Shown here: in pieces, positions 52,051 through 55,722 of the stretch
How positions within the stretch are numbered: the stretch's first letter is position 1
Layout of the letters: every line of letters starts with the position of its first letter
Assembly: GCF_002240055.1 (NCBI RefSeq)
Contig: NZ_CP016753.1
Span: 62,001-126,000 of the forward strand
DNA length: 64,000 bases
Origin: Leptotrichia sp. oral taxon 498
GTDB lineage: Bacteria > Fusobacteriota > Fusobacteriia > Fusobacteriales > Leptotrichiaceae
Direction: 5' to 3'
The notes under the pieces: generated by a model
What the model was told of the DNA's origin: nothing
The model's database searches: none
Seen by the model: only the letters and a program-made list of their open reading frames with translations
Position numbers and translations under genes: made by a program

Positions 52051-52452
52051 CTATTTCATATTTTTTACTAATTTTGCAAGAATTCCATTCAGAAAATCCT
52101 TTGTGTCATTGTAAGAATATTTTTTTGCAAGTTCCAAAACTTCGTTTATTGCAATTTCAAATCCTACTTTTTTTATAAGGATTTCATAAAAAGAGATTTT
52201 TAATAATACCTTTTCTATTGTTCCCAGTCTTTCATAAGTCCAACCGTCAAGTGTATTTTTTATTTTTTCTACTAAAATTTCTTCATTTTCAATAATTTCA
52301 GTTACATAACTTTTTAAAAAATTAATCTGGTCTTCTTTTGTAATTTTTTCTTCTTCGACAACTTCCTCAATTCTTTTTTGAATATCGTTATCAATTAATT
52401 CATGTTCAAAAAGAAGCTTAAAAATTTCTTCTCTAATTTTTCTTCTTGTCAT
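52051..52452 (-). CDS. nusB: Transcription antitermination protein NusB
   Basis: A 133-residue all-helical protein: TRRKIREEIFKLLFEHEL at the start, DGWTYERLGTIEKVLLKISFYEIL, and EVLELAKKYSYNDTKDFLNGILAKL at the end. It binds boxA RNA with S10 to keep rRNA operons transcribed. I chose ATG 52452, after AGGAAGGG; the frame from 52479 adds nine residues. It ends the accB-accC-asp23-amaP-nusB run, an order shared with many Firmicutes. Confidence 0.93.
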   Translation of the reverse strand: MTRRKIREEIFKLLFEHELIDNDIQKRIEEVVEEEKITKEDQINFLKSYVTEIIENEEILVEKIKNTLDGWTYERLGTIEKVLLKISFYEILIKKVGFEIAINEVLELAKKYSYNDTKDFLNGILAKLVKNMK

Positions 52453-52633
52453 CAAAATTTCCCTTCCTAAAATCTTCAAAATACTCGAACTACCATAGAA
52501 AAAATCCTGTGGTTCTCAGTAAATTTACCAAGCTATCCTCATTGTTCTTGCGGTTCTTATATTATTTCTTAGATAATATTTCCAATTATTCTTGCAATTT
52601 TATTTTTTTAAGTTACTCTGTTTTTTCTTTTTT

Positions 52634-53266
52634 TTAAAAATTTTTCTCTTTTTCAATTTCTTTTTCTTGATTTTTATCTGTACTTTCAGATTTTTTTGTT
52701 TCAGAATCTTTTTCAGAAAAATCCATAGCTTTTCTTTCTGTTATTGTTTCACTTAAAACTTTTCTTAATTTTATTTTACTTTTTTTTACTGTAATTCCAG
52801 TTGAATGAAAAACATATTCGGTTAATTCATTTTGAATCTCTGAGAGCTTGTCATTCAAATTTTCTACATTATATGTATCCACACTCGCTTCAATAATAAC
52901 CGCTTTTCCTTTTGAATATGATTTCACTTTTGAGTTTTTTATAATTTCTTTTGTTTTTAAAAACTCTTTTGTCGTTTCATTTATTGTTTTAATTGATACT
53001 TCAATTTCGCCACTTTTACTTCTCACTTTTTTATTTTGAGAATATTTAGTAAGTTTGTTGATATATGAAAGTAAAAATAAAACTAAATAAATTACTGCAA
53101 CTACTCCAACTAAAATCTTAACATTAAAATTACTCAAATCAACCGCACTATCCAACTGATCTAAATATGTTGTTTTGAATAAAATATCTGAAATACTAGA
53201 AAAAGCAATTCCAATAAATCCCAATATCACTGATAATTTTGCTAAAAATCCTAATATAGCTGTCAT
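52634..53266 (-). CDS. amaP: AmaP-like membrane anchor for Asp23
   Basis: A 210-residue protein with two N-terminal membrane segments (ILGFLAKLSVILGFIGIAFSS and ILVGVVAVIYLVLFLLSYI), then a cytoplasmic domain similar in strand pattern to Asp23 (SGEIEVSIKTINE, AVIIEASVDTYNVENL), and a charged Lys/Glu/Ser tail. AmaP anchors Asp23 at the membrane in staphylococci. It starts ten bases after the asp23 gene. The 181 bases to nusB hold no gene. Confidence 0.82.
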   Translation of the reverse strand: MTAILGFLAKLSVILGFIGIAFSSISDILFKTTYLDQLDSAVDLSNFNVKILVGVVAVIYLVLFLLSYINKLTKYSQNKKVRSKSGEIEVSIKTINETTKEFLKTKEIIKNSKVKSYSKGKAVIIEASVDTYNVENLNDKLSEIQNELTEYVFHSTGITVKKSKIKLRKVLSETITERKAMDFSEKDSETKKSESTDKNQEKEIEKEKNF

Positions 53267-53276
53267 TTATCCACAC

Positions 53277-53660
53277 CTATTCCTCTGTTTGTTCTGCCAC
53301 TGCTACTTCATTTTTTTTATCATCTTCAACAATTTTTTGAATGTATACATTCACTTCTTGAACTTTTAATCCAGTTGTTTCTGTGATTGCTTTTACCACT
53401 TTTGTCTGAATTTCTCCAGCAAGGGCTGGTAATTGGTAACCCATTTTAGCTACAATATACAAGTCGATTGTACATTCAGTTTCACCAACTTCTACATCAA
53501 TTCCTTTTCCTCCAGCAGATACGCTTTGGAAAAATTTAATTATTTCATTTTTTGATTTTCCTCCAACTAAACTGCTTACTCCTTCAATTTCTGAAACTAC
53601 TAATTCTGCAATTGTTGCAACAACTTCCTGTGATATATTTACATTTCCTAATTCGTTCAT
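53277..53660 (-). CDS. Asp23/Gls24-family envelope stress protein
   Basis: A 127-residue Asp23 protein: GNVNISQEVVATIAELVVSEIEGV at the start, then VEVGETECTIDLYIVAKMGYQLP and VQEVNVYIQKIV. The family forms membrane-linked filaments or helps the envelope under alkaline stress. It is unusual to think of it in a diderm, but fusobacteria keep this set. AGGAGG precedes the ATG, and its likely anchor gene follows at once. Confidence 0.93.
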   Translation of the reverse strand: MNELGNVNISQEVVATIAELVVSEIEGVSSLVGGKSKNEIIKFFQSVSAGGKGIDVEVGETECTIDLYIVAKMGYQLPALAGEIQTKVVKAITETTGLKVQEVNVYIQKIVEDDKKNEVAVAEQTEE

Positions 53661-53804: not shown

Positions 53805-55160
53805 TTATTTTTCCAAAACTTCGCTAAAATAAGTTTCAATAAAGTTTGTATAAAATTTTCCTTCTCTAAATGCCTTGTTTTTAAAAACTTTTTGATGAAA
53901 AGGAATTGTTGTGTCAATTCCTTCGATTATAAATTCCTTTAATGCTCTTTCCATTCTTACAATCGCTTCTTCACGATTTTTTCCTTTGACTATTAACTTA
54001 GCTATCATCGAATCGTAATAAGGCGGTATTTCATAATTTTGGTACGAGTGTGAATCCACTCTCACTCCAATTCCACCAGACGGAATATATTTTTCCAAAA
54101 TACCAGACGACGGCAAAAATCCATTTTCTGAATCTTCAGCATTTATTCTGCACTCAATTACATGTCCATGTATGTTTATATCTTTTTGAGTAAAACTCAA
54201 TTTTTCTCCCGCTGCCACTCTTATTTGCTCTTTTACTAAATCAACTCCTGTAATTTCTTCACTTATTGTATGTTCCACTTGAATTCTCGTATTCATTTCC
54301 ATAAAATAAAAATTCATTTCTTTGTCAACCAGAAATTCCAATGTTCCAACACTGTCATAACCTATCCCTTTAGCTAATTTTACTGCAAATTTTCCCATTT
54401 TTTCACGAGTCTTTGCGTCAATTCCAGCTGATGGGCTTTCCTCTATCAATTTTTGATGTCTTCTTTGAATAGAGCAATCTCTTTCTCCTAAATGAACGAC
54501 ATTTCCATATTTATCTCCAATCACTTGAATTTCAACATGTCTTGGTTCTTCAACATATTTTTCAATATAAACATCTGGATTTCCAAAATTTGCTTTGGCT
54601 TCATTTTGCGCAACGACATAGTTTTCAACTAATTCTTGTTCATTATGAGCAATTCTCATACCTTTTCCACCGCCACCGGCAGTTGCTTTTATCATGACAG
54701 GATAAGTTATCCATTCTGCAATTTCTTTAGCTTCTTCAACACTTGGGACAATTCCGTCCGAACCTTTTGTCATTGGAACTTTATGTTTACTTGCAGTTTC
54801 TCTTGCAGTCGCTTTATCTCCCATCATGCTAATAAGTTCAGGTTTAGGGCCAATAAACACAATACCATTTTTTTCACAAATTTCAGCAAATCTTTGATTT
54901 TCTGATAAGAATCCATATCCTGGATGAATTGCCTCACTATCTGTAATTTGTGCCGCTGAAATGATATTTGGTATTTTTAAATAAGAATCAGCAGCACTTG
55001 GCTTTCCAATACAAATTGCCTCATCTGCAAGTTTTACATGCAGGGAATCCTTATCCGCTTCTGAATATACAGCAACTGTCGCAATTCCCAATTCTCTTGC
55101 TGCTCTTATAATCCTCACAGCGATTTCCCCTCTATTTGCTATTAATATTTTTTTAAACAT
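53805..55160 (-). CDS. accC: Biotin carboxylase AccC
   Basis: A 451-residue ATP-grasp enzyme that carboxylates biotin. It starts [20 protein letters not shown], holds the glycine loop [12 protein letters not shown], the [15 protein letters not shown] block and [20 protein letters not shown], and all expected catalytic residues. 451 residues is the acetyl-CoA carboxylase subunit length. AGGAGG precedes the ATG. It lies 30 bases after the accB-like gene, whose product lacks the biotin lysine, so its true biotin partner is in doubt. Confidence 0.95.
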
Positions 55161-55190: not shown

Positions 55191-55586
55191 TTATTTTATT
55201 TCGATTTTAAATAATTCTTTTGAAAAATCAACGGCGATTCCATCAGAGACCAAAACTTCTTTTATCACTCCGTCAACTGTGGCTCTTACTTCATTTTCAA
55301 TTCCCATTGTGTAAATTTTAGCTAATATTTCACCTTTTTTAACTTCTTTTCCACTATTTACATTTAATAATTTTATCTTCCCAACATTATCTGACTTAAT
55401 AATTTCTTCTTTTTTTACCTTTTCTTCTTTTTTCATAACTTTTACAGGATGGGACACATTTATTTTTTGACTGGCATCACAAGAATTAATCAATGTTAAT
55501 TTCATTTTTCCATATCTAATTTTAAGCTCTTCCAACTCTTCTTTTTTCATAACTTTCATCAATTCTTGAATATCTTTTAATTCCAT
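55191..55586 (-). CDS. AccB-like biotinyl-domain protein lacking the biotin lysine
   Basis: A protein of about 131 residues laid out like AccB: helical N-terminal part (MELKDIQELMKVMKKEEL), charged linker, and C-terminal lipoyl/biotinyl domain from about 68 (NVGKIKLLNV, VKKGEILAKI, DGVIKEVLVSDG). The attachment site of the family is Glu-Ala-Met-Lys-Met; here the text is YTMGIENEV, so Gly96 (counting the tandem Met) replaces the Lys, while both flanks align well. It cannot be biotinylated at that place. The position before accC is conserved synteny. It may be a scaffold, a decayed subunit, or a sign that another BCCP is used. Confidence 0.8.
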   Translation of the reverse strand: MELKDIQELMKVMKKEELEELKIRYGKMKLTLINSCDASQKINVSHPVKVMKKEEKVKKEEIIKSDNVGKIKLLNVNSGKEVKKGEILAKIYTMGIENEVRATVDGVIKEVLVSDGIAVDFSKELFKIEIK

Positions 55587-55722
55587 CATTTCTCCTCATT
55601 TTAAAACTATCATTTTTAAAAATTTAAATTTTTTTATTTTGTATTAATCGCTTAATTTTGATAATTTATTATAACATACAATATTATATTTTACAATATT
55701 TTTAAGGTTTCAAGAAAGATCA

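Follow-up and report, generated by a model that had tools for sequence, protein, structure and literature searches.

A lysine-less BCCP-like protein encoded beside accC across Fusobacteriota is a probable non-catalytic subunit of acetyl-CoA carboxylase

Acetyl-CoA carboxylase (ACC) commits carbon to fatty acids, and the bacterial enzyme is taught as having four subunits. The 64,000-nucleotide stretch of the Leptotrichia sp. oral taxon 498 genome analysed here (the window) contains, directly before the biotin carboxylase gene accC, a gene for a protein resembling the carrier subunit BCCP (AccB), but with glycine at the site of the biotin-accepting lysine. The questions raised by this locus are which protein then carries biotin, and what the lysine-less protein does. 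The gene and its recognizable parts are:

55191-55586, minus strand: lysine-less BCCP-like protein, 131 residues, the first gene of an accB-accC-asp23 cluster.
55485-55586, minus strand: residues 1-34, an N-terminal region whose homology to the N terminus of E. coli BCCP follows from alignment of the family profile, from its position 4, with 4HR7_B.
55302-55304, minus strand: GGA, encoding Gly95, the biotin-accepting lysine site, assigned from the codon and from alignment to the E. coli BCCP lysine.
55194-55406, minus strand: biotinyl-like domain (residues 61-131) lacking both thumb and lysine, as assigned from a PF00364 match to residues 66-129 and a count of thumb motifs.

The reading frame spans 55191-55589 on the minus strand and has two ATG codons after a GAGGAG ribosome-binding site. 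The second ATG (at 55586) is the better start, because it lies at the usual spacing from GAGGAG and because relatives begin with the same MELKDI; the limits given in the first-pass annotation, 55191-55586, are thus good. The codon at 55302-55304 is GGA, flanked by ATG and ATT and differing from AAA or AAG at two bases or more; the proposed Met-Gly in place of Met-Lys is a correct reading. A profile of 28 relatives aligns over nearly the full length of E. coli BCCP (4HR7 chain B; E 2.2e-17), with Gly95 of the window protein opposite the modified lysine of the EAMKM motif. The protein scores 46.4 bits against PF00364 (Biotin_lipoyl; gathering cut-off 22.1) and 43.0 bits against TIGR00531, for which the curated whole-protein cut-off is 115.2. 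Structure prediction from its single sequence was unusable (pLDDT 33).

The window genome (2.15 Mb, one contig) was searched together with 97 others of the same phylum, 98 in all, 81 of which encode a stand-alone AccC above the curated cut-off. Every one of these 81 also encodes the lysine-less protein, in 80 cases directly upstream of accC; the remaining copy, in G087, is split over two contig ends. Glycine occupies the lysine column in 81 of 81 proteins, including those of two close relatives (88% and 85% identity), so it is not a read error, a single one having been judged unlikely in the first-pass annotation; lysine at this place in relatives, named beforehand as the observation that would count against the claim, occurs in none. 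Only two other columns are invariant in the family and both are glycine; together with the invariant glycine at the lysine site, this pattern suggests a turn held under constraint, not drift. The reading frames of the relatives are intact and accC follows the window gene after 30 bases, in line with the first-pass view that the gene keeps its frame and its place before accC. Judged across these sequences, the Met-Gly change is phylum-wide and ancient.

The carrier function appears to be met elsewhere in the genome. The window genome encodes an ordinary AccB at G000:C1:1055693-1056154, after folD and about 0.94 Mb from accC, so that the recommended search for another BCCP finds one; it has the motif EAMKLMNEVKS, a thumb and a score of 131 bits to TIGR00531. 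The genome has a single AccC, with accA and accD at a third locus, and also encodes a decarboxylase-type carrier; the possibility that it has no carrier was rejected given these two proteins. Ordinary AccB was read in 78 of the 81 genomes with AccC, with the copy in G056 recognized by score alone; only G027 and G086, both approximately 82% complete, have none. All 80 of the ordinary AccBs read across the phylum have EAMK (57 EAMKLMNE, 17 EAMKMMNE, one EAMKLLNE and five with MND), and all 80 are more than about 1.5 kb away from accC. G056 provides a natural control, in that its second accC is preceded by a lysine-bearing AccB (EAMKVFNE). The lysine-less protein has a median identity of 29% (range 20-37%) to the AccB of its own genome. 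The thumb motif (SPMxGTFY...P.FV, before the carrier hairpin) is found in 74 of 80 ordinary AccBs, but in none of the 81 lysine-less proteins. Lacking lysine and thumb, and scoring well under the whole-protein cut-off, the latter is, as far as its sequence indicates, no working BCCP.

In G075 (L159 124-1956) and G076 (L155 130-1965), the ordinary ACC-type BCCP found is fused in frame to the end of a carboxyltransferase resembling OadA/PycB, giving proteins of 611-612 residues; the carrier parts of these fusions fall within the fusobacterial AccB clade in the tree described below, and fusions of this type are also present in most top Clostridia matches (e.g. L185). A second AccC is present in G003, G004, G008 and G010 (L220-L223), and another lysine-bearing BCCP-like carrier in some species of the genus (L024-L027, L050). 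The extra carrier of G010 follows genes that by eye are KipI/KipA-like, probably encoding 5-oxoprolinase.

The lysine-less gene is followed by accC, an Asp23-family gene, a gene for a 210-residue protein and nusB, all on the same strand:

53805-55160, minus strand: accC, biotin carboxylase, 735.6 bits to TIGR00514, the only AccC in the window genome.
53277-53660, minus strand: asp23/yqhY-family gene, following accC in all 50 relatives whose sequence extends far enough.
52634-53266, minus strand: 210-residue protein between asp23 and nusB, with no Pfam match above cut-off and with N-terminal membrane segments seen by eye.
52051-52479, minus strand: nusB, after the gene for the 210-residue protein.

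The 210-residue protein is a possible envelope partner of Asp23. The association of the lysine-less protein with AccC extends to its absence: the genomes without AccC (G013, G028-30, G077, G082, G083, G091-96 and some incomplete ones) have no lysine-less protein, and those named have no ordinary AccB over the cut-off either, the carrier matches read in AccC-less genomes being of the decarboxylase type, with EAMKM. The genomes named are mostly small. The joint absence of AccC, AccB and the lysine-less protein suggests that malonyl-CoA synthesis has been lost in these organisms and that host fatty acids are relied on.

In a tree of 32 lysine-less and 32 ordinary proteins, built with the motif columns removed, the two types fall into two distinct clades, each with an SH-aLRT support of 99, whose internal branching is similar; the tree does not order the two relative to the outgroups. 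A single lysine-less clade that branches like the ordinary AccB clade argues for vertical descent after one old duplication, and the simplest reading of the tree would be a single ancient duplication, or a single ancient acquisition, that predates the divergence of the phylum into families. Within the genus, dN/dS relative to the window gene is 0.11-0.24 for the whole gene and 0.07-0.17 for the biotinyl-like domain; the lysine-less family is under purifying selection.

BCCP docks to biotin carboxylase via its N-terminal region and its barrel-sandwich domain. The fusobacterial protein keeps the parts used in docking to AccC, has lost those used in carrying CO2, and has its gene next to accC, being absent where AccC is absent, and this combination is why we consider it probable, at the level of sequence, that it is a non-catalytic ACC subunit working like the plant BADC proteins. 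The first-pass annotation had left a choice between another carrier and a new role for the subunit, such as holding AccC. This interpretation is partly supported: both halves hold, since an ordinary AccB exists and, from linkage, co-occurrence and homology, a new AccC-related, non-catalytic role for the lysine-less protein is most probable.

Probably, a BCCP gave rise to two copies before the phylum diverged into families and one of them became a non-catalytic subunit, retaining the N-terminal region and, presumably, the barrel-sandwich domain, with the biotinylated hairpin tip (EAMKLMNE) exchanged for a turn with an invariant glycine and the thumb lost. Co-produced with AccC from one gene cluster, the protein would then join AccC and the biotinylated AccB encoded far away, forming a mixed BC-BCCP complex. 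Once there, it could serve as a 'glue' keeping the BC-BCCP complex together, or it could occupy carrier positions, so determining the number of live biotin arms per AccC and, through this, the output of malonyl-CoA. An effect on assembly is more likely than inhibition, although the sign of the effect is itself presumed.

The chief rival to this reading, though an unlikely one, is that the protein acts outside the working enzyme as an autoregulator, sensing free AccC or AccB and repressing or tuning the accC cluster. Its position as first gene of the cluster and its retention of the BCCP N-terminal region accord with such a role, for which loss of biotinylation would release the protein from catalysis; E. 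coli AccB has, moreover, been proposed to autoregulate accBC (James and Cronan 2004, as cited in PMC11602165). The mechanism in E. coli is, however, itself unsettled, and the lysine-less protein has no DNA-binding motif. A scan for promoters and terminators gave nothing above chance, and conservation is strongest not in the N terminus, but in the biotinyl-like domain (with its low dN/dS and invariant glycine sites).

It is likewise improbable that the protein is a dominant-negative inhibitor of ACC, competing with biotinylated AccB for AccC. The anatomy of such a brake would be the same as that of a subunit, and inhibition has its advocates in the case of plant BADC (work cited in PMC11926652). 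However, an inhibitor that is co-produced with AccC and kept in every genome with AccC needs a control of its own, none of which is seen, and NMR work on the plant system from 2025 speaks against inhibition.

A role as a linker, connecting AccC to Asp23/YqhY, and perhaps also to the membrane protein encoded after it, for envelope anchoring or control, is very unlikely. The presence of asp23 after accC in all 50 loci with room is consistent with it, as is the report (PMC5437119) that loss of YqhY in B. subtilis selects mutations in acetyl-CoA carboxylase subunits. By contrast, in other bacteria the AccB of accBC-yqhY is an ordinary one, which indicates that YqhY needs no lysine-less partner. 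The same operon bears on the preferred reading as a non-catalytic subunit, because the place of the gene beside accC could be left over from an ancestral accBC-yqhY order (PMC5437119) and need not signify contact. That the gene is a pseudogene, that its sequence is in error or that its product carries a modification on a different lysine is suggested by the missing lysine alone and has negligible probability, given the ordinary AccB in the same genomes, the glycine in 81 of 81 intact frames with whole-gene dN/dS of 0.11-0.24 (which reject error and pseudogene) and the finding that no lysine near the site is conserved throughout the family (which counts against another acceptor).

The lysine-less subunit may occur in a single phylum only. 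The family profile was searched in 398 genomes of a Clostridia-type phylum and in 198 genomes of the Paraflavitalea phylum (Bacteroidota); among the matches listed, all but two of the matching genomes had a single match. The motif was read for 28 of the best 30 Clostridia-type matches and for all of the best 20 Bacteroidota matches; each motif read is EAMK. Nor was a lysine-less BCCP found among the matches with a motif read in ten scattered genomes of further phyla; in this sample the quick motif pattern took other residues in 4 of 14 matches, two of which show EAMK. A relaxed plant-BADC pattern gave 10 matches in approximately 85,000 prokaryote genomes, compared with about 7 estimated by chance, and none of the 10 loci has a biotin-carrier domain. 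No report of a bacterial lysine-less BCCP was found in the open-access literature, subscription journals being mostly outside this search. BCCP-like proteins without the lysine are known as a kind from plants; what appears to be new is a bacterial form that is linked to accC throughout a phylum. On balance, we lean towards the view that it has been a fifth, non-catalytic ACC subunit since the origin of the phylum and is the first AccC-tied lysine-less BCCP from bacteria, resembling BADC either by convergence or by ancient common origin.

If so, a phylum-wide fifth subunit, derived from a dead carrier, would change the four-subunit picture of the enzyme in important oral and gut bacteria, and would provide a small, easily purified system in which to ask whether lysine-less BCCPs, including BADC, assemble or inhibit the enzyme. 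There is also a consequence for annotation, which may name the lysine-less gene accB and thereby mistake it for the carrier gene.

Plant BADC contacts the thumb of BCCP, a contact that is at most hypothetical for the fusobacterial protein, and this counts against the preferred reading. The absence of a thumb motif from the fusobacterial protein itself is a separate difference from BADC. The plastid BADC proteins are BCCP relatives with 25-30% identity that lack AMKL, are not biotinylated and help BC-BCCP assembly (PMC11926652), although, according to the same paper, plant work disagrees on assembly versus inhibition, an inhibitory role also being argued. The fusobacterial protein is similarly a BCCP homologue, at a comparable median identity of 29%, without the biotinylation lysine, and, at the sequence level only, it coexists with AccC and an ordinary AccB, as BADC does with a biotinylated BCCP and a heteromeric enzyme. 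By contrast with BADC, it is bacterial and has a fixed position before accC. In work on Brassica (PMC9578262), the motif CYIEQLGGQFPIESDVTGEVVKI is presented as a new biotinyl domain, belonging to proteins that were mapped to the Arabidopsis BCCP-like gene. This motif, published as a 'new' biotinylation domain, lacks the site lysine, also has glycine at that position and looks BADC-type; its fit to the fusobacterial profile is better, at 9.5 bits, than that to the ordinary-AccB profile, at 2.3, a comparison in which BADC is represented by this 23-residue published motif only. In our analysis, the proposal that the fusobacterial protein may work like BADC is kept apart from the claim that it is a BADC.

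Compared with ordinary AccB/BCCP (TIGR00531; E. coli 4HR7), the fusobacterial protein shares, by sequence, the N-terminal region, linker and biotinyl domain, together with the position before accC seen in many bacteria, but differs in having neither lysine nor thumb and in scoring 43 bits where the cut-off is 115.2. The locus has been counted as an ordinary accBC-yqhY operon, Fusobacteria being among the phyla listed with this operon in the relevant part of PMC5437119, and its gene order is indeed common to the operon described there for Firmicutes and others. Unlike the operon elsewhere, however, the 'accB' of the fusobacterial version is the lysine-less protein, and the real accB is located elsewhere.
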